Made by a program: the position numbers and the translations under genes
The notes under the pieces: model-generated
The model's input: only the letters and a program-made list of their open reading frames with translations
The model's database searches: none
What the model was told of the DNA's origin: nothing
Assembly: GCA_900320515.1 (NCBI GenBank)
Contig: ONSJ01000006.1
Span: forward strand, 1-64,000
Direction of reading: 5' to 3'
Source of the DNA: an uncultured Methanobrevibacter sp.
Lineage (GTDB): Archaea; Methanobacteriota; Methanobacteria; Methanobacteriales; Methanobacteriaceae
Length of the DNA: 64,000 nucleotides
Shown: positions 51,765 to 61,620 of the stretch, one piece after another
How the letters are laid out: each line of letters opens with the position of its first letter
Numbering within the stretch: position 1 is the stretch's first letter

Positions 51765-52289
51765 ATGGAAATAAAGAGAAATATTAATTTGAACATTAAA
51801 AAGACTGTCGAAAACTCCGTATGCGGAAATGAAGAGTTTCATTTCTATGTGGATGAACTAACATCCAATAATTACATGCCGACTTATGCGGGCATGGCCG
51901 ATGAAAAATACGCATTTGATGAAATGGGCGATGAATTCTTTGAATTTTTAGCTCAAAAAGCCGATGGGGACGGAATCTACATCCGCCTTGTATATGCAAC
52001 TGCCAGTGAAATGGATGGCGAAGCTGTATTCCAGCTGGAATATGGTGAGGCCAAAGAGGAATACAGGACTGAAGACATTGATGATGTCCTGGTGTTTGAA
52101 TTTGCAGACTATGGAATCAAAGTGAAGGGAAACGAGGTGACCTTTGGCGCAACAATAGAAGGAGGTTGCGGACATACTCCCTACTTTGCCGAATTCGGAT
52201 CAAAGAAAGCCAGTGAAGATTTTATTTCACTTGAAAATCCTTTGAACAGAAGGATAATATCGATTATGGAGGGGATGATATATGATTAA
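51765..52289 (+). CDS. Unknown soluble protein, 174 residues
   Basis: Unrecognised acidic protein without signal peptide or membrane segment. Residues 20-110 have alternating strand-like stretches (IYIRLVYATASEMDGEAVFQL, DDVLVFEFADYGIKV) and the C-terminal half has EGGCGHTPYFAEFGSKKASEDF. The start follows TTTAGAGGAAATAAA. Its last bases overlap by 8 nt the start of a small membrane protein, so the two are translationally coupled. It opens a run of small unknown genes reaching to 53.2 kb. Confidence 0.65.
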   Translation: MEIKRNINLNIKKTVENSVCGNEEFHFYVDELTSNNYMPTYAGMADEKYAFDEMGDEFFEFLAQKADGDGIYIRLVYATASEMDGEAVFQLEYGEAKEEYRTEDIDDVLVFEFADYGIKVKGNEVTFGATIEGGCGHTPYFAEFGSKKASEDFISLENPLNRRIISIMEGMIYD

Positions 52290-52446: not shown

Positions 52447-52809
52447 ATGCTGATTGATTGGGTTAGATATTCACAAGAGGTCGTTGAATTTTTAAATGTT
52501 GAAACGCTGAAGAAGATTGACTATGGAATTTTGGACTTATCCAAAATCAGGAATCATGAGCTCAGGGAAGTTCTTGTCTTCCTTGAAGAGCTTTTAACCA
52601 TGGAGCTGAAGGTAAATTACCTGGAAAATGACACCGGGCTTTTCAGGGTCCATGTTGTTGGGGGCAAATGTTATTATAAGGAATTCGGATATGTGATTGA
52701 AGCTGATTCCGTATGCGAGCTGAAGGAATTGGTTTTGGCAGAAGACAGAATATGGTATGTGTTTGATGAGATTATGGCCTGTAATTATTTGGGGAGCGCT
52801 TCTCCTTGA
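52447..52809 (+). CDS. Unknown protein carrying the shared ~50-residue domain
   Basis: A 120-residue cytoplasmic protein. Residues 1-60 are helical and unrecognised. Residues about 66-114 (from FRVHVVGGKCYYKEF through IEADSVCELKELVLA to IWYVFDEIM) align without gaps with the repeats of the 59,829 protein over its last 27 positions. It starts 9 bp after the small membrane protein gene with AAGAGGTTCT before the ATG. Function unknown. The gene shares its neighbourhood with the next zinc-ribbon gene, which has the same domain. Confidence 0.65.
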   Translation: MLIDWVRYSQEVVEFLNVETLKKIDYGILDLSKIRNHELREVLVFLEELLTMELKVNYLENDTGLFRVHVVGGKCYYKEFGYVIEADSVCELKELVLAEDRIWYVFDEIMACNYLGSASP

Positions 52810-52867
52810 ATAATTAACATTTTTCAATGGACAAGGATGTTGAAAATTAAAGATATGGGGGTTAAAT

Positions 52868-53239
52868 ATGAAAACATGTCCTAACTGCTCCAAAGGATTA
52901 AACGGGAGCTTTAAATACTGCAACGGATGCGGTTCTAATTTGGAAAGTGGAGTTATCGGAGACTTCAAAACAGATTATCTGAATGTATTTAAAATCAATG
53001 ATGAATTTGTCTACCTTTTCTCAGTGAAAGGAAGGCAGATCGTACTGAAGGCAAATTCAATCGATGATTTAAGGGAATTTGTCAAAATCAAGAGGTTCCC
53101 ATGGAGGGAGCCGGAAAGAAACCTGTTGGAACATGAGGTGTCACTGACAAAACCGGCAAATGATGATTATGGGATTATAGGCGTCACAACGCTTGAGAGA
53201 AATCCCGAATATTCAAATCTTGATAAGCTATTCAAGTAA
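52868..53239 (+). CDS. Zinc-ribbon protein with the shared ~50-residue domain
   Basis: A 123-residue protein. An N-terminal zinc ribbon (CPNCSKGLN...CNGCG, residues 4-20) is followed by one copy of the unexplained domain (about 36-92: YLNVFKINDEFVYLFSVKG, LKANSIDDLREFVKI, FPWREPERNLLEHE), then a short tail. The start follows ATGGGGGTTAAAT. It is 58 bp after the 52,447 gene on the same strand. Zinc-ribbon plus a small alpha/beta domain might bind nucleic acid or another protein; this is inference only. Confidence 0.7.
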   Translation: MKTCPNCSKGLNGSFKYCNGCGSNLESGVIGDFKTDYLNVFKINDEFVYLFSVKGRQIVLKANSIDDLREFVKIKRFPWREPERNLLEHEVSLTKPANDDYGIIGVTTLERNPEYSNLDKLFK

Positions 53240-53251
53240 TCACGCTGACTG

Positions 53252-53331
53252 CTGTTTAAGTGGGTTTTTATTTGTTCATATCATTTCACCTTTTAAATTC
53301 ACTCCTTAAATTGCTTTTCCCACTTAAACAG
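53252..53331. repeat. 13-bp perfect inverted repeat spaced by 54 bp
   Basis: CTGTTTAAGTGGG (53252-53264) and CCCACTTAAACAG (53319-53331) are exact reverse complements between two genes, directly before the helicase operon. The spacing is too large for a simple terminator; it may be a long hairpin in RNA, an operator pair or the ends of a tiny mobile element. Confidence 0.55.
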
Positions 53332-53375
53332 TACAAAATTATTTAACTAATTTTAAACAAAAATTATGAACAGTT

Positions 53376-54224
53376 ATGATAAATGAGGTTATGATAAACA
53401 GACTGGATGAACTTATTGGAGACTATAACACTCCTTTTTTCAATTACCTGCTTTACTCTTATGACTTGAGCCTGAATGAATGTGAAAGCATAATCGATGA
53501 GCTGAAGGAGGACATCAGCTCAAGCAAGGTCGTCTCTGACAATATGGTGTCCACTCTGGATGCATATTTCAAGTCAAAAGTCGCAGATTTGGAAAAGCAG
53601 GAAAAGCTTAAATACCTGGATGGCCTCATTAGCGAAGATAATGGCTTTTACATTAAATACCTTAAAAAATATGACCTGCCTGCCGATGACATTTCCCTGA
53701 TTCGAGAAAGGGTCGAGTCCAAAATCATCGCCGACAACATAACAGACTTTGAAATCAAGAGATACCTTGAGTACTACTTTTCAAATTCCCTAAAGCAGAT
53801 TTCCTACATAAACGATCTGAACGGCATTGTCGGAAACAATTACGATACCCTTCTGATTCAAAACCAGAAGAAGACCTATCCGATTTTAAGGGACAAAGAC
53901 ATTGTAGATATCGTCTTTGCCATTCATGGTGAAATCATAGAAGCCAGGGAATTTAAAAACGGCATCAAGAATGAATTCAAAAGGCAGTGCATGATTAGAA
54001 GTGAGGACAAAAAGGCGAAATGCAGAAAAAACCTCAACAGGTTTGTTGTTGACAGTGGAGACTCCTTTTCAAAGCTGGTGGAATTCAAGGGCCTTGAAAA
54101 AAGGGACGGTGAGATAATAGTTTCGCAAATAATGGATGACATCTCAAAAGGTCTCGTTCAGCCCGAAATGATTGACGGTGTTTTCATAACCAGACGTTTC
54201 AACGATTACAATGAGAGACAGTAG
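53376..54224 (+). CDS. Unknown helical protein coupled to the helicase
   Basis: Unrecognised 282-residue soluble protein, mostly helical, with several similar stretches (EDISSSKVVSDNMVSTLDAY; RVESKIIADNITDFEIKRYL; GEIIVSQIMDDISKGLVQ) that may be a degenerate helical repeat. A basic patch (KKAKCRKNLNRF) lies near residue 213. It overlaps the helicase gene by 14 nt, so the two are translationally coupled and probably act together. No clear ribosome binding site precedes the ATG at 53376; a second ATG lies at 53391 with GAGGTT unusually close. Confidence 0.65.
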   Translation: MINEVMINRLDELIGDYNTPFFNYLLYSYDLSLNECESIIDELKEDISSSKVVSDNMVSTLDAYFKSKVADLEKQEKLKYLDGLISEDNGFYIKYLKKYDLPADDISLIRERVESKIIADNITDFEIKRYLEYYFSNSLKQISYINDLNGIVGNNYDTLLIQNQKKTYPILRDKDIVDIVFAIHGEIIEAREFKNGIKNEFKRQCMIRSEDKKAKCRKNLNRFVVDSGDSFSKLVEFKGLEKRDGEIIVSQIMDDISKGLVQPEMIDGVFITRRFNDYNERQ

Positions 54225-57200
54225 CGTTTTTACTTTCCTGAAAAGTAAGTATGAAAATTTATATGACCTGTGCACGGTCATGGAAAAACTGATTGTTCTT
54301 GAAAGATACGGCCTAGCCATGGCTGTAGCCAAGATAATCCTTGATCTGTTCTGCCGCCAGACAAAAAGGGAGCTTGTCTTCACGATTGATGTTTTCAATG
54401 ACGATTCACTGTCACTGAGTCGAAACGATTTGGAAAGCGTCCACAAAATACTTTTTGATTATATCTATAGGGACTATTTTGTCGGCCTTGATGAGTTTTT
54501 AAGGGTCGACTATGAATTCGATTTCACGTATTTGGGCAGCAATCCAAGAATAACCAATGATGACGTTTACCTTATAGTCGACAATCTTGAGGTTGACTCT
54601 GTAGCTCCGGCCCTGGTGGGTCTTGAGGGTGATGATTTGATATCCATTGAGGATCTGGACGCAGAGGATAAGAAGAGGACATTGGATATGGTTGAGGAAA
54701 ATCTCAATCGGTTCATAAGGACTCATATCCTGACACTTGATTTGTTTGACAGCGAGGGAAATCCAATTTCACGGCCGCTCAACTTCGAAGCTGTCAGAAA
54801 GGCCGACAGGTGTGCCGTTCGAGAGATTCCCCCTGATGTCGAGCTTGATGAATTTCAAAGGGATGCAGTGGAATATATTGGAAAGCCCCTGGTGATCAAT
54901 GCGGGACCGGGTGCCGGAAAAACACGGGTGATCATTGAAAGGGTGCTTTATCTGATTGAAAACGGAGCAGAACCCGAATCCATACTTGTTATCACATTCA
55001 CCAACAAGGCCGCCGATGAGCTGAGGGAGCGATTCAAAAAGGACACCAAGCTGGAGCTCAACGTCATAAACCAGATGAGGATAAGCACAATCCACAGCTT
55101 CTGCAGGTCAATCCTATCGGATTTCTGTGACATTCCATATAACCTGCTTAAGAGGGAATCCGAAAGGAACCTCTTTTTCAACAAGCACAGAGGGGACCTG
55201 GGCTTTACGGGTCCCGCATTTCTTCGAAACTACGAATCCGGACAGGTCCTAAAAAAGTATGAGGAATATGCATTGTTTGAGGTTGACTCAAAGGCGCTTA
55301 TAGAATATATCGAATCTAAGTACCGGCCAAGCGAGGAATACCTTGAATACATTGACGGGTATTACCAAACACACTCTCACAACCAGTATCCGACAAAAAA
55401 GGAAATCAAGGCAAGGCACTTTTCATGCGATGTCTACAAGGCACGTTACCTGCAGATTGCCAAATCATACAGGGACTGGATTGAGCTTATGGAGGCGGAG
55501 CACGTCTGCGACCAGAATTATCTTCTCATCAAGGCACTGGAGATACTTTCAGATAAGGACAACCTGAAGCAGGTCCAGTACCGCAATGTCCTGATTGACG
55601 AGTTTCAGGACACCGACGCCATTCAGATGCAGATATTCGAACACTTAAGAAGCATTTCAGACACCTTCACAGTTGTCGGCGATGCGGACCAGAGCATATA
55701 CTCCTTCAGGGCGGCAAATCCGAAATTCTTCAACGACTATGCGAAAAGCGATGAGTTTGAAAACAGGATTCTTGTAAACAATTACCGCTCGACTTCAGAC
55801 ATAGTCGAGTTCAATGAAAGGTTCATAAGCCCGAAGCGTTCAAATCCCAAGGATTTAAAGGCGGTCAACGAATCCAAGATGCCGGTCTACATGCTTGAAA
55901 ACAGGAAGGATGATGAATACCGGGGAATTGCATATATTGTCAAGAACCTGAAAAGCTCCGGAAAGATCGCCAAATACAGTGATGTCTGCATTCTCTTCAG
56001 AAGCCACAAGGACAAAAAGGACATCCTCGAGGAATTCGAAAAGGAAAACATCCCATATTACCTTAAGGGAATTGACGATCTGATTTATCAGGATGAGGTG
56101 AAGGCTGTGCTTGCCCTTCTTTGGTATATGCTCCCATTTGACCCGACACGCATTGCATATTACGGGGATGGGGGCCAGTGGATAAACCTCTCGTCATTCA
56201 CTGATATCTACTATGAATCCTCAAAGGTCTTCAGGCTTTCAGCCAAAACCCAGGACATCCTCAACGACATCGAACGCAGGTTCCATGCAAATGTCGTAAG
56301 CGTCAAAAGCAGTTTCAAGCCCCTTGATTCCTCCTCAAGGTCATCATCGATAATGGACGTGGTCAGGGACTTTGCAGACGATACCTTGGAGGAGATATTC
56401 AGCAGGGTCGGTCCGGTCGATTTGAGCACGTTTTCACGAAGCGAGCTTGCAGGAATCGGAATAACCGACGAGCATGACCTTGACTTCTTTTCGGATTTAA
56501 ATGAGCTTAAATCATCCCTTGGCGAGGTGAGAATGTCCTGCCTTGAAGTGTTTTATGAGCTTATAAGGATAACAGGCTTTGCAGATGAGCTTTTCTCAAG
56601 AAGCGACTTTGAAGCCAAGAAGGCGGCCCTCAACCTTGCGTTGATATCCGAAATAATCTCGGATTATGAAAACATCATGGGAAAATACGACCTTATCGGA
56701 CTTTTCAATTATCTCTACCGTTCGCTCAAGTACTACTCATGTCCGATCAATGAGGAGGAGGACAACTCCCAGAAGGTCCATATCATGACTGTCCACAAGG
56801 CAAAGGGCCTTGAATATCCCGTGGTGATAACCGCTTCAATCAAGGACAGAAGCTTTCCTCTTACATTTTCCCCTCAGAGGAAGAATCATGTATTCAACAA
56901 CTATCCTGTCTATCCGACCCCAAACAGGTTTTTGAAATACAAGATATCCGAAAAGCTGGAGCCCTTCGAGTTCGACCGTGAGGAGGAGAGGGTGGTTTAT
57001 GTTGCAAACACCCGTGCAGAGGAGCTTTTGATACTTTCGACAGTGCTTCCAAGGACAGGTAGCAGAACCCCTCAGGTGCTCAGGGACTATGAAGATGAGC
57101 TGGTCAAAATCGAGCCTTCCGATGTATTTGACATGAAAAAAGTCACATCCCACATGGTCAGGGACACCAATCTCTTCAACCAGATCGATTTTGAAAACAT

Positions 57201-57882
57201 CCTGGAGGATTACCTGTTCTGCCCGCTGAGGTACAACCTCGAAAGCAACCTCAAGTTCAAGAATCCCAAAAACATCGACAAGTTCATCGACTCAAAGCTC
57301 AGGATAATCGTCAACCGGCTGCACAATGAGAATTTCATGACAGAATGGGACAGAAACGCCATTGAAAACCTCGTATCTGAGGTCATCAAATCATACTCAT
57401 TCGCCTCCGGTGAAAAGAACTTAAAAAAGCTCTTCAATCACTTTGCAGACTACTGGCAGGACTACGGCAGGAACTTTGACGTCATAAGGACATCCCATCC
57501 TGTAAGCCTTGAGGTGGGAGGATATGACATAAACGGCGTCATAGACCTGATGGTGAGTGACGGTGACGGCGTGAGCCTGGTTCACTTTATCCGCACACGT
57601 GACGAGATGAAGAACTACCATTCATTTTACATGGAGCTTCTGGGCTATTATGCGCTGGCGCTTAAGGAAAGGGAAGACGTTGACGTTGAAAACCTGATGC
57701 TTTATGTTCTCGATGAGGGAAAGCTCTATGAAAGGGAATTTGTCAAAAGCGAATTCATTTTGGAGTATCTGGCAAGTGTCGTCGACAACATATCCGAGGA
57801 TAACTACTCCAGGCATTACGTAAGCTGCGGGGAGTGTGAGTTCAACGGTCTCCTGTGCCAGAACAGTAATCTATTTAACTGA
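54211..57882 (+). CDS. UvrD/Rep-type helicase with AddB-like Fe-S C-terminus
   Basis: A 1,223-residue superfamily 1A helicase. After an unknown N-terminal region (1-210) come GPGAGKT (Lys237), TFTNKAADELRERF, LIDEFQDTD (Asp463, Glu464), VVGDADQSIYSFR, HTVHKAKG-like MTVHKAKGLEYP and VVYVANTRAEELLIL. The C-terminal domain resembles AddB/RecB nucleases with four Cys placed for an iron-sulfur cluster (Cys1004, 1206, 1209, 1216). Asp in GVIDLM is kept, but the D-x-K motif is replaced in LVHFIRTR, so nuclease activity is doubtful. The role may be DNA repair or defence. It is coupled to the unknown gene upstream and lies 20 bp before a TPR gene. Confidence 0.88.
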   Translation: MRDSSVFTFLKSKYENLYDLCTVMEKLIVLERYGLAMAVAKIILDLFCRQTKRELVFTIDVFNDDSLSLSRNDLESVHKILFDYIYRDYFVGLDEFLRVDYEFDFTYLGSNPRITNDDVYLIVDNLEVDSVAPALVGLEGDDLISIEDLDAEDKKRTLDMVEENLNRFIRTHILTLDLFDSEGNPISRPLNFEAVRKADRCAVREIPPDVELDEFQRDAVEYIGKPLVINAGPGAGKTRVIIERVLYLIENGAEPESILVITFTNKAADELRERFKKDTKLELNVINQMRISTIHSFCRSILSDFCDIPYNLLKRESERNLFFNKHRGDLGFTGPAFLRNYESGQVLKKYEEYALFEVDSKALIEYIESKYRPSEEYLEYIDGYYQTHSHNQYPTKKEIKARHFSCDVYKARYLQIAKSYRDWIELMEAEHVCDQNYLLIKALEILSDKDNLKQVQYRNVLIDEFQDTDAIQMQIFEHLRSISDTFTVVGDADQSIYSFRAANPKFFNDYAKSDEFENRILVNNYRSTSDIVEFNERFISPKRSNPKDLKAVNESKMPVYMLENRKDDEYRGIAYIVKNLKSSGKIAKYSDVCILFRSHKDKKDILEEFEKENIPYYLKGIDDLIYQDEVKAVLALLWYMLPFDPTRIAYYGDGGQWINLSSFTDIYYESSKVFRLSAKTQDILNDIERRFHANVVSVKSSFKPLDSSSRSSSIMDVVRDFADDTLEEIFSRVGPVDLSTFSRSELAGIGITDEHDLDFFSDLNELKSSLGEVRMSCLEVFYELIRITGFADELFSRSDFEAKKAALNLALISEIISDYENIMGKYDLIGLFNYLYRSLKYYSCPINEEEDNSQKVHIMTVHKAKGLEYPVVITASIKDRSFPLTFSPQRKNHVFNNYPVYPTPNRFLKYKISEKLEPFEFDREEERVVYVANTRAEELLILSTVLPRTGSRTPQVLRDYEDELVKIEPSDVFDMKKVTSHMVRDTNLFNQIDFENILEDYLFCPLRYNLESNLKFKNPKNIDKFIDSKLRIIVNRLHNENFMTEWDRNAIENLVSEVIKSYSFASGEKNLKKLFNHFADYWQDYGRNFDVIRTSHPVSLEVGGYDINGVIDLMVSDGDGVSLVHFIRTRDEMKNYHSFYMELLGYYALALKEREDVDVENLMLYVLDEGKLYEREFVKSEFILEYLASVVDNISEDNYSRHYVSCGECEFNGLLCQNSNLFN

Positions 57883-57902
57883 CTGTTTTTAAACTATATC
57901 TT

Positions 57903-58793
57903 ATGAGCTGCAATATTCCCAGTGAACTTGACTGTGAGACTTCAGGCAACCTTATAAGGATTTTCATTGATGGACTGTCCACAAATTGGATTGGCCGTGA
58001 CGATTCGTTTTTTGAAAGAATAGATGAGGATAATCTCAATCATGAACTGCGCATCAAGCACCTTAAAAAGGAAATTCAAATCAAAAACACTCTGGATAAT
58101 GGAATTTCCCTTTTCAAGTCACAAAAATATGCAAAGGCCATTGAAAAGCTTGATGAAGTGCTTTTTTATGACCCAGAATACGGTGAGGCATTGCTTTTCA
58201 AGTCATATTGTCTGTGTTGCCAGGGCCATTACGTCAAGGCATTGAGGCATTACAAAAGAGCGGTCAGGGCCTGCGAATCCCTTAAGGACATCGAATACCA
58301 CAAGGCCCTTTTGGCAAAGGCAAATGATGAAAGATCCAACTTTCCCAAACTCAAACAGAACATCTATGCAGGCGATGAGCATTTTGCAAGGGGCGAGTAT
58401 CAAATGGCCATTGAAAGCTACAGCAGGGCCCTTCAGGATTCCTCCAGATTCAAGCAGAAGATATTGTCAAAGCTTCTAAACAAGAAGGCAACCGCCTATC
58501 TGAAATTGGATGATTTCACCGAAGCTCTTGAATGCTTTAAAGAGTCTCTTGATGTTGAAATGAGCGATTACGCAATCTTCGGCAGGGGAATTTGCGAATA
58601 CGAATTGGATTTGGATATTGACTCTGGGTTTCGAGGTTTTCTGGAGATTTCAAAGCGCCAGATGCTGAAGCAGGCTTCGGTTTTAAAGGAGCTTGGATAT
58701 CATGAGGATTCTATGAGAATCCTGAAGTTTCTACGTGAAAATCATTTCAAAAATGATGAGGTCTACAAAAAGATGGCGATGCTTATGGATTAG
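57903..58793 (+). CDS. TPR-repeat protein following the helicase
   Basis: A 296-residue cytoplasmic protein. The N-terminal 60 residues are unrecognised; residues about 60-270 form tetratricopeptide-like repeats (QKYAKAIEKLDEVLFYDPEY, GHYVKALRHYKRAVRAC, GEYQMAIESYSRALQ, DDFTEALECFKESLD). TPRs form protein-binding scaffolds. It starts 20 bp after the helicase stop and may belong to the same operon, suggesting a scaffold for that complex. No clear ribosome binding site is seen in AAACTATATCTT. Confidence 0.75.
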   Translation: MSCNIPSELDCETSGNLIRIFIDGLSTNWIGRDDSFFERIDEDNLNHELRIKHLKKEIQIKNTLDNGISLFKSQKYAKAIEKLDEVLFYDPEYGEALLFKSYCLCCQGHYVKALRHYKRAVRACESLKDIEYHKALLAKANDERSNFPKLKQNIYAGDEHFARGEYQMAIESYSRALQDSSRFKQKILSKLLNKKATAYLKLDDFTEALECFKESLDVEMSDYAIFGRGICEYELDLDIDSGFRGFLEISKRQMLKQASVLKELGYHEDSMRILKFLRENHFKNDEVYKKMAMLMD

Positions 58794-58902
58794 CCTTTCC
58801 TGTTATACTATTTTTTCACTGCATTTCAAGAATATTAAATATACGTTTCATTATTTTAGTAAAAAATCTATTGTATACACTTTTAATTAAGTCTTCCTTT
58901 AA

Positions 58903-59322
58903 TTATTTTGGATGTTTAATCGGGTCGTCATCAGCATGGATTTCAGCAGATATTTCGAATGTGCCGTCACCGGATCTGATTTCCATACATTCAATGTTTT
59001 CCTCAAGGCCTTCAAATTTGGCCATGAATTCTATTAAATCCTCTTTTTTGATGGAATATGAATATTTCCTAATTTCAGGACTTTCATCCTCTTCTGTTTC
59101 TTCCTCTTTGAGGTGCTGTGAGAGAAAACTGCTGCATGTGAAAATGTCTGTGAGATAATATTTGTCAGAAATCTGATTTTTTTCTATCAGTTCGCATTCC
59201 ATCAGTGATTCTATTGCCTCTTTCGGGTTATCGAAATGATTATAGAGTTCTTCAGGGCTGAATTCACATCCAAAACCAAAAATGTCAATTATTTCATTCA
59301 ATGTTTTTGCAGTATCATTCAT
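58903..59322 (-). CDS. Unknown acidic protein, possible winged-helix N-terminus
   Basis: Unrecognised soluble protein of about 139 residues. The first half (EIIDIFGFGCEFSPEELYNH through SLMECELIEKN) has helix patterns like a winged helix with a short wing (ISDKYYLTD); the second half is acidic and beta-like (FEISAEIHADDDPIKH). An extended frame reaches 59382, but the ATG at 59322 (MNDTAKTL) follows a TATA-like CCTATATTC and fits a leaderless start. It has no operon neighbour on its strand. Confidence 0.5.
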   Translation of the reverse strand: MNDTAKTLNEIIDIFGFGCEFSPEELYNHFDNPKEAIESLMECELIEKNQISDKYYLTDIFTCSSFLSQHLKEEETEEDESPEIRKYSYSIKKEDLIEFMAKFEGLEENIECMEIRSGDGTFEISAEIHADDDPIKHPK

Positions 59323-59554
59323 ACTTGAATATAGGATTTTTTTGTTTAAAAACATTGGCAATACTGTGCTTGAATACAACAAATTTAAATAGGATTAAAA
59401 TATATTATTTAAATGAGGAAACATATCTCATGTTTTCTTTTAAAAAACACAATATATGTTATCAGTATTAAACGGATTATTGCCTGGTTTTACATGATGG
59501 CTGGGCAATATTAATACTGTTTTTGGATTCTTTTTTTATATTAAGGCGATATTG

Positions 59555-59827
59555 ATGGATGATGAAACATTGAAGATATTTGCTTACGTTAATATTTCCT
59601 CGTATAGGGTCAGAAGCGTAAAGGCACTGAAAGGTGAGGTCAAAACTCCAACGGATATTGCAAGGGATGCAGACATCAAGCTTAATCATATCTCCAAGGT
59701 TCTCAGTCAGCTCAAGGACTGCGGCGTTGCGGTCTGTCTGAATGAGGAGGCATACCGTGGAAGAAAGTACAAGCTGACCGGCGTTGGAGAGGAAATCGCA
59801 GATCATCTTGACAATTTGGGGGATTGA
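59555..59827 (+). CDS. Winged-helix transcription regulator
   Basis: A 90-residue DNA-binding protein of the MarR/ArsR-like winged-helix type: VRSVKALKGEVKTPTDIARD leads into the helix-turn-helix, with the recognition helix around KLNHISKVLSQLKDCG and the wing in EEAYRGRKYKLTGVGEEIA. The ATG at 59555 follows TTAAGGCGATATTG. The stop is 1 bp from the start of the next gene, which carries the two-repeat domain, so the pair is one operon and may form a regulator/ligand-sensing unit. Confidence 0.8.
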   Translation: MDDETLKIFAYVNISSYRVRSVKALKGEVKTPTDIARDADIKLNHISKVLSQLKDCGVAVCLNEEAYRGRKYKLTGVGEEIADHLDNLGD

Positions 59828-59828
59828 A

Positions 59829-60203
59829 ATGAAATTTTCAGGATTCATGAACGTGTATCTTTTGGATGACATGAGCTGGGAGTACCAGTTCGCCGACAGG
59901 TCACTTAAGGCTGGGACACTTGAGGAATTGGAGCTTCTGGTAAATCTGTACGGATTGAAATGGAATATTCTCGATGAGAATCTGGCAAAAGAATCCCTAG
60001 AAATCGACAGGAATAATCACAGCGGATTTTTAAATGTCTATTTCAAAGATGATGCATGGTATTACAGGGGTTCGGATTTAAAGGCAACCAGCCTTCAGGT
60101 ATTGAAGAAGAGGGTTCTGGCCAGGGGTTTGGAATGGAAGGAAACCGATAGGGATCTTGCATATAAGACATGGAAACTGGACTTGAGACGCTTTGAAAAG
60201 TAA
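59829..60203 (+). CDS. Protein made of two copies of the shared ~50-residue domain
   Basis: A 124-residue cytoplasmic protein that consists almost wholly of two tandem copies of an unexplained domain (about 3-60: SGFMNVYLLDDMSWEYQF, LKAGTLEELELLVNLYGLKW; and 62-116: SGFLNVYFKDDAWYYRGSD, LKATSLQVLKKRVLARGLEW). The ATG at 59829 follows TTGGGGGATTGAA; an upstream in-frame start inside the previous gene is less likely. The same domain occurs in the 52,447 and 52,868 genes. It is coupled to the winged-helix gene before it. Confidence 0.75.
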   Translation: MKFSGFMNVYLLDDMSWEYQFADRSLKAGTLEELELLVNLYGLKWNILDENLAKESLEIDRNNHSGFLNVYFKDDAWYYRGSDLKATSLQVLKKRVLARGLEWKETDRDLAYKTWKLDLRRFEK

Positions 60204-60463: not shown

Positions 60464-60952
60464 ATGATTTCACAAGAAAAAAATGAAACTGTCTCCAATA
60501 TTTTGAGTGATGCGGCTCAAAAGTCGTATGAGAAGATTAAAGCATTGATATTAAGAATATTCACATTGCTTAAAAGACAAAAAAATCAAAAAAATCTTAA
60601 GGAAGAGTTCTATGATTCCTATATAGATTTTGCAAGGAAATTAAAGTCGGAAGGTTATGATAACGAATGCTACAATTATATGGCGATTTGTGAAATGTAT
60701 TATCATTTGATTGATAGGCCTGAGGAATTAATTTCGCATGAAAAATTCTTCAATGATTTGTTCAATGCTTTTGATGGTCTGTTATCATCTACAATTAGCA
60801 AATCTGTTGATTATGATGAAAAATATGATGAATTCTTGTTGTATACTACAAAAATGCAGGAGTATTACTATAAGAATTTAGCAGTTCCTAGCAGGTCTTA
60901 TGATGAGGAGTGTTGTAATAAAATTATTTGCGGGTTATCCGGTGATTTTTGA
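60464..60952 (+). CDS. Unknown partner of the PIN-domain protein
   Basis: Unrecognised 162-residue soluble protein, A+T rich and helical, with a basic stretch (LLKRQKNQKNLKEEFYDSY) near residue 45 and many Tyr/Glu/Lys. The start follows AATCGAGGTAAAAAA. It overlaps the PIN-domain gene by 1 nt (TGATG), so translation is coupled. A toxin-antitoxin arrangement, with this as the antitoxin-like partner, is possible but the protein is longer than classical VapB and lacks a clear DNA-binding motif. Confidence 0.6.
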   Translation: MISQEKNETVSNILSDAAQKSYEKIKALILRIFTLLKRQKNQKNLKEEFYDSYIDFARKLKSEGYDNECYNYMAICEMYYHLIDRPEELISHEKFFNDLFNAFDGLLSSTISKSVDYDEKYDEFLLYTTKMQEYYYKNLAVPSRSYDEECCNKIICGLSGDF

Positions 60953-61620
60953 TGAAAAATGTTTTCTTAGACACTAATGTTCTTATCGCAATAATATTTT
61001 TAATTAATTCTCATTATCTAAAAGCAAAAGAAATATTTGAGTTATATCAGAATTATTACTGGTCAAATGGGGTTGTTAGAGAATTAAATCACCGATTTGG
61101 AGAAAAACAGATTAATCTAACTAAATTCTATATGGATTTAAAATTGTTTTTGGAAAATCCGGAAAAGGATTTGTATTCAAATAGAGATTTGTTAAATTTT
61201 GTAAAGAATCATTATTCAGAAAAATTGTTTGAAGACGCTAAAAATTCAGTTGAACCGTTTTGGAATAATTATATCGGTGTGGAATCAATGGTTCCGTTTT
61301 TTAATATTAAAACATCAATTGATTTTTGTTTAAATGATTTGAGAATTACCTGCGTAGGAAATAAGCAAAAATTAGAAAATAAATTGGTATTGGCACCTCA
61401 AAGAAATAATGATTATTCTCAGATTGATGCCATGCTTGAATCTTTAGGCGTTCATGAGGAGGACAGAAAAATCATATTGGACGGCCATGATTTTGCCTGT
61501 TTTTCCACACAGCCTGTTGATTTTGTAACATTCGATGACGATTGCTTCAATGGGGCAAAAAATATTGATTTGCTGTGCTTCAATTCAGTCAAGGGAAAAT
61601 ATGATTTCAGGGCATCATGA
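60952..61620 (+). CDS. PIN-domain protein
   Basis: A 222-residue protein with the PIN ribonuclease pattern: FLDTNVLIAIIF at the N-terminus (first Asp), VVRELNHRF (Glu) about 35 residues later, HDFACFSTQP near the end, and FVTFDDDCFNGAKNI (C-terminal Asp). PIN proteins cleave RNA in toxins and processing factors; it is longer than VapC (about 130). The ATG overlaps the previous stop and follows GGTGATTTTTG. Like its partner, its DNA is clearly more A+T rich than nearby genes, suggesting recent gain. Confidence 0.75.
   Translation: MKNVFLDTNVLIAIIFLINSHYLKAKEIFELYQNYYWSNGVVRELNHRFGEKQINLTKFYMDLKLFLENPEKDLYSNRDLLNFVKNHYSEKLFEDAKNSVEPFWNNYIGVESMVPFFNIKTSIDFCLNDLRITCVGNKQKLENKLVLAPQRNNDYSQIDAMLESLGVHEEDRKIILDGHDFACFSTQPVDFVTFDDDCFNGAKNIDLLCFNSVKGKYDFRAS

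Follow-up and report, generated by a model that had tools for sequence, protein, structure and literature searches.

An uncatalogued domain shared by three small Methanobrevibacter proteins and by viral homing endonucleases, with a candidate role in DNA recognition

The 64,000-nucleotide stretch of an uncultured Methanobrevibacter sp. analysed here (assembly GCA_900320515.1, contig ONSJ01000006.1; hereafter the window) carries a gene island in which three small proteins, named P0001 (the 52,447 protein), P0002 (the 52,868 protein) and P0003 (the 59,829 protein), hold four copies of one domain of about 55 residues, with one copy each in P0001 and P0002 and two in tandem in P0003 (Table 1). The domain is real, uncatalogued and lineage-specific, and a coherent and testable role can be proposed for it. 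Its main context, invisible to a first-pass annotation made from the window's letters, is that of a C-terminal module in viral homing endonucleases of the HNH and GIY-YIG types and of a fusion to a helix-turn-helix (HTH) protein.

That annotation had described a domain of about 50 residues, four times present in three open reading frames (ORFs), and the three ORFs were found where it had placed them. Pairwise BLASTP likeness of the proteins is on its own only suggestive: P0002 aligned with P0003 (E=7e-5) and P0001 with P0003 (E=6e-4), the latter without gaps over the C-terminal part for which a gapless match had been noted, and P0001 and P0002 gave no alignment with each other. Profile searches confirmed the shared domain. 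A hidden Markov model (HMM) built independently from 18 copies, all from nuclease-, virus- or HTH-linked proteins and including no window protein or ortholog, ranked the three proteins first to third among 343 window ORFs (E 7.5e-14, 0.0027 and 0.011, followed by an ORF at 0.46); among 6,860 shuffled ORFs the lowest E was 0.075. Leave-one-family-out HMMs also recovered P0001 and P0002 (E-values in Table 1) with the next window ORF at about 0.3, and the two approaches together returned exactly the proteins originally named. Genome-wide, a profile search of the same assembly, which is 84.55% complete, found only these four copies at E<0.05. Near-invariant alignment positions across all classes are G2, V6, [WYF]19, Y21, L46, V50, W57 and D61, close to the motifs first listed from the window, and copy 1 of P0003 shows extreme conservation ('MKFSGFMNVYxLDDMSWEYQFG').

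At the C-terminus of P0002, 'LDKLFK' was weighed as a PCNA-binding motif and set aside; it recurs in few proteins only. In some species a second P0001-like protein of 211-216 amino acids (aa) follows P0002 (L128:6920-7555, L055:313-963; L-numbers are loci) and ends in 'IEKMFV', resembling the P0002 end and 'LDKMFR' of L018.

Copies were detected with the domain profile in 56 of 67 Methanobrevibacter genomes and, in a sample of the phylum, in 64 of 152 genomes and 3 of 20 genera, all of one family (Methanobacteriaceae), which bears out the expectation of many stand-alone and fused matches in Methanobacteriales. Clear P0003 orthologs were seen in Methanobrevibacter genomes only. Searching 50,697 phage and 72,556 plasmid records by tblastn with the domain region gave no match; phage matches to nuclease L013 end near residue 190 of the query, short of the domain or only just inside it, and no relatives came from viral scans in which the L014, L015 and L077 proteins served as queries. 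As far as searched, these sequence comparisons suggest that the domain is confined to Methanobacteriaceae and their viruses. No model in Pfam, NCBIfam, PHROGs or PADLOC covers it, in keeping with the initial view that it belongs to no named family, and a PDB sequence search with the domain profile returned no match.

Outside the window, in proviruses and on viral contigs, the domain occupies the C-terminal end of two unrelated families of homing-endonuclease-like nucleases. GIY-YIG nucleases carry one to four copies (four in L014, two in L013, one in L016; also L152), and a single copy is present in HNH_3 nucleases (L151, L232, L233, L234 with two genes, and L074) and in the HNH-like L078. Catalytic-domain models (PF01541/TIGR01453 or PF13392) stand beside the domain in L013, L014, L016, L074, L151, L152 and L232-L234, and NUMOD3 motifs adjoin it in most nuclease fusions; the window proteins themselves have no such catalytic domain next to it. 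Several of the fusions are on IMG/VR contigs, with L231, L232 and L233 lying among virus genes, and neighbours of L231 and L232 resemble terminase genes by inspection. An Rfam search for group I introns at ten nuclease loci gave no match, and for this reason the nuclease genes look free-standing.

Host proteins carry the domain in other settings. A protein of 236-261 aa joins an N-terminal HTH to two domain copies, and, wherever its flanks fall within the contig, always has a glmS-like gene on one side and a purC-like gene on the other (seven sister-genus loci, plus L077 in Methanobrevibacter); this protein (L245-L251; L077:1648-2379) looks like a conserved unnamed regulator. Giant proteins of the genus (870-1,659 aa) contain CxxC pairs, HTH-like units and three to eight domain copies, most of them preceded by an 'ILxPLP' linker, and are possibly large modular DNA-binding arrays. 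Among small host proteins, the P0003 type carries two copies, or three in some species, and a third genus has an 89-90 aa protein with a single copy.

Because two unrelated kinds of nuclease end in the domain, next to NUMOD3, and a host HTH is fused to it as well, it is most simply read as a DNA-recognition module; by analogy, its presence on two different nuclease families is characteristic of a recognition tail that can be exchanged. We assign a probability of about 0.55 to the whole of this reading, namely a Methanobacteriaceae DNA-recognition module that is C-terminal in viral and proviral nucleases and nuclease-free in hosts, with the window proteins as DNA-binding accessory or regulatory proteins. 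A domain common in selfish nucleases would also be expected to leave fragments behind, and the copies might then be worn homing-endonuclease relics with no function of their own, an explanation already disfavoured and barely credible given the purifying selection on P0001, P0002 and P0003 (ratio of nonsynonymous to synonymous substitution rates, dN/dS, of 0.04-0.14 where dS is unsaturated or computable), a gene order kept over many species, and intact ORFs with hyper-conserved motifs.

The order of the island in relatives runs AMP-dependent ligase, 174-aa protein, P0001, P0002, 282-aa protein, UvrD/PD-(D/E)XK protein, TPR protein, winged-helix protein and P0003. Approximate counts over 26 P0003 loci were 20 for the 174-aa gene, 17 each for P0001 and the TPR gene, 10 for the winged-helix gene and 9 for the helicase, which are lower bounds since many loci stop at contig borders; one locus was counted twice, and L076, with P0001 and the helicase and without P0003, was additional. 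P0001 orthologs keep their place next to the 174-aa gene, and next to the UvrD-type gene in those loci that have one. In 21 genomes of the genus there is a helicase ortholog of >60% identity. G103, G132, G135 and G055 retain P0001 and P0003, but neither the helicase nor the 282-aa gene was found in the interval separating these two, so the pair is a separable cassette. The 282-aa/helicase pair (53376-57882) comes or goes between P0001/P0002 and the TPR gene; the helicase has a cysteine-rich tail, and the defence-system labels given to it were discarded as generic UvrD similarity. Only one base separates the stop of the winged-helix gene from the start of P0003, and the two are therefore probably an operon. 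Beside P0003 lies a further gene pair encoding 162-aa and 223-aa proteins, which recurs with P0003 in L125, L135, L147 and L070; the 223-aa protein is PIN-like by eye and has no Pfam match.

Table 1. Positions of the domain copies, the proteins that carry them and other genes (window coordinates unless a locus is named).
Feature	Position	Strand	Remarks
P0001, 120 aa	52447..52809	+	N-terminal helical region and one C-terminal domain copy
Domain copy 1 (in P0001)	52633..52785	+	profile E=4.8e-16; leave-out HMM E=8.2e-7
P0002, 123 aa	52868..53239	+	N-terminal four-cysteine zinc ribbon and one domain copy
Domain copy 2 (in P0002)	52970..53134	+	most divergent; profile E=2.3e-15; leave-out HMM E=4.1e-7
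P0003, 124 aa	59829..60203	+	consists solely of two tandem domain copies
Domain copy 3 (P0003 copy 1)	59838..59996	+	profile E=3.7e-18; charge acidic
Domain copy 4 (P0003 copy 2)	60021..60170	+	profile E=2.6e-18; charge mildly basic
174-aa protein, no family	51765..52289	+	most constant neighbour of P0001/P0003
282-aa protein, no family	53376..54224	+	overlaps helicase gene
UvrD/REP helicase, 1223 aa, bearing a PD-(D/E)XK nuclease region at its C-terminal end	54211..57882	+	
TPR protein, 296 aa	57903..58793	+	conserved neighbour
Winged-helix protein, ATG start	59555..59827	+	HVO_A0261_N E=6.5e-5, HTH_45 E=2.3e-4, both below cut-off
162-aa and 223-aa gene pair	60464-61620		
Giant unnamed protein of the genus	L059:4636-9597		
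Giant unnamed protein of the genus	L060:3847-8235		
Giant unnamed protein of the genus	L061:607-3603		
Giant unnamed protein of the genus	L062:2340-5570		
Giant unnamed protein of the genus	L063:2401-5013		

The first-pass annotation had taken a linked zinc ribbon and winged helix as pointing to nucleic-acid-linked sensing. Both are present, each with sub-threshold matches (E=0.0024 in Pfam for the P0002 ribbon; Table 1 for the winged helix), and the nucleic-acid context stands; the 'sensing' part found no direct evidence. Electrostatics divide the copies further. Nuclease-linked copies mostly have net charges of +5 to +10 and those of the giant proteins average +3.1, and among window-type copies only P0003 copy 2 is basic (average +1.9); it has an R that does not vary and a helix rich in K. 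Several results weigh against DNA recognition by a module of viral origin. The main counter-evidence is that the remaining window-type averages are negative (P0003 copy 1 -1.9, P0001 -2.3, P0002 -1.6), and sheet positions that are K or R in nuclease copies are often D, E or neutral in these copies; some nuclease-linked copies of L014 and L016 are themselves near neutral; none of the fold matches described below is significant, with VIA-align Z under 4 and unrelated folds tied; and a domain tree of 76 rows and 57 columns, which separates the classes well, gives weak support (37/98) to the branch that divides window-type copies from nuclease/HTH/giant copies, without settling a descent of the host copies from those of nucleases. 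Apart from P0003 copy 2, the copies in the window carry on average a neutral to acidic charge, so DNA binding by the host proteins is something that we infer. Virus-to-host transfer of the domain is plausible.

The same acidic to neutral character of P0001, P0002 and P0003 copy 1 would suit a host module that has lost DNA binding and instead contacts other proteins, as an adaptor that holds together the TPR, winged-helix, zinc-ribbon and helicase-nuclease proteins encoded in the island. The place of the TPR protein among the most constant neighbours and the extreme conservation of P0003 copy 1 also fit such an adaptor. However, P0003 copy 2 with its basic character does not, P0002 retains its zinc ribbon and P0003 its coupling to the winged helix, and sister-genus copies are still fused to an HTH; on balance, we consider the adaptor rather unlikely.

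AlphaFold2 models were made for both P0003 copies and for the HNH-linked, virus-encoded copy of L151. P0003 (predicted local distance difference test score, pLDDT, 91.6) is predicted to form two similar units with the element order β-β-β-α-α, and the L151 copy (pLDDT 95.3) has the same order, so that the modelled copies share one fold and do not differ from each other as the first-pass annotation had allowed they might. Foldseek found no match in PDB or BFVD at E<=0.001. In VIA-align, the top row for the L151 copy was 1b69, the Tn916 integrase N-terminal domain/DNA complex (Z 3.6, 47 residues, 2.6 Å), with unrelated folds tied; next among DNA binders came 6sy0, an AP2 repeat (Z 2.9, level with rows of unrelated proteins), followed by the arm-type 3rmp/3jtz (2.4/2.1). 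The P0003 rows 2yzt (Z 3.9) and 3bid (Z 2.5) were taken to reflect a common arrangement.

Sub-threshold Pfam matches to PF02920 (Integrase_DNA) recur in the W-x-Y-x-Y...S-L region (E 0.008, 0.013 and 0.056). Comparison by hhalign gave no support for homology to AP2 or Tn916, neither of which did better than column-shuffled alignments; the AP2 score was 9.4 against a shuffled median of 8.7 and best of 17, a comparison of low power with 8 AP2 rows only. Pfam AP2 (PF00847) matched none of 72 domain copies and nothing in the window's own genome, and no tyrosine recombinase domain was found in the domain-bearing proteins scanned with Pfam. By the tests run, the domain is not a member of AP2 or PF02920. 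The models make it plausible that it shares a fold class with the Tn916 integrase N-terminal domain and AP2; homology to either is unproven because Z is low with ties and the hhalign scores are within the shuffled range.

Small beta-sheet/helix domains carrying aromatic residues can bind RNA, and ribosomal proteins are also among the weak VIA-align rows, so the module might bind RNA and not DNA. Fusions to nucleases and to HTH indicate DNA, however, and no RNA-processing partner was seen, and we regard RNA binding as very unlikely.

Under the preferred reading as a DNA-recognition module, viruses and proviruses would use the domain as the C-terminal part of free-standing HNH and GIY-YIG homing endonucleases, beside NUMOD3, and hosts would use it without a nuclease, as two copies on an HTH, as arrays in giant proteins and in the three small island proteins. 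P0003 may work with the winged-helix protein encoded immediately upstream, and P0001 and P0002 with the downstream helicase-nuclease operon when present. Since only P0003 copy 2 stays basic on average, the host proteins may contact DNA via this copy, the zinc ribbon or the winged-helix partner, the acidic copies possibly making protein contacts. It is a more specific and quite unlikely proposal, in effect a lineage-specific parallel to the AP2 case described below, that methanogen hosts took over an undescribed DNA-recognition domain from the homing endonucleases of archaeal viruses, as a small virus-DNA recognition or regulatory part of an AddA-like helicase-nuclease island in rumen and gut Methanobrevibacter. 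In any case, an uncatalogued domain family connects three small gut-methanogen proteins, all conserved, with an HTH regulator and with the homing endonucleases of viruses, and a class of 'hypothetical' genes is thereby opened to simple DNA-binding assays.

Homing endonucleases have a modular architecture (PMC3943268), and the domain may, by analogy, work like a nuclease-associated recognition module. Like NUMOD-type modules it is C-terminal behind HNH or GIY-YIG, adjoins NUMOD3 and is common to unrelated nuclease families; unlike them it is larger (about 55-65 aa), has the predicted β-β-β-α-α order, is frequent outside nucleases and is matched by no NUMOD/IENR model, only the neighbouring NUMOD3 being so matched. 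The Tn916 integrase N-terminal domain (PF02920, 1b69) offers the best structural row and the recurrent sub-threshold matches, but the domain stays below the Pfam cut-off, is not on a tyrosine recombinase, and has a profile-profile score within the null range. AP2, which has been proposed to have reached plant transcription factors by way of HNH homing endonucleases (Magnani et al. 2004, as cited in PMC10448857), occupies the same slot behind HNH in viral nucleases (cf. L242, HNH+AP2), and resembles the domain in its nuclease-free use and perhaps in fold, three strands and then a helix being predicted for the domain, whereas the domain lacks a Pfam AP2 match and the 'LG' strand-3 motif, has an extra C-terminal helix and scores within the shuffled range. 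CapR, a repressor of a bacterial satellite system that originated in the DNA-binding portion of T5orf172 homing endonucleases (PMC10448857), is an unrelated domain, but likewise shows the recognition part of a homing endonuclease employed by itself, in CapR as a regulator and putatively so here. If the host copies bind DNA, archaea would supply an independent example of such a recognition part working without its nuclease, as has been proposed for the plant AP2 factors and CapR.

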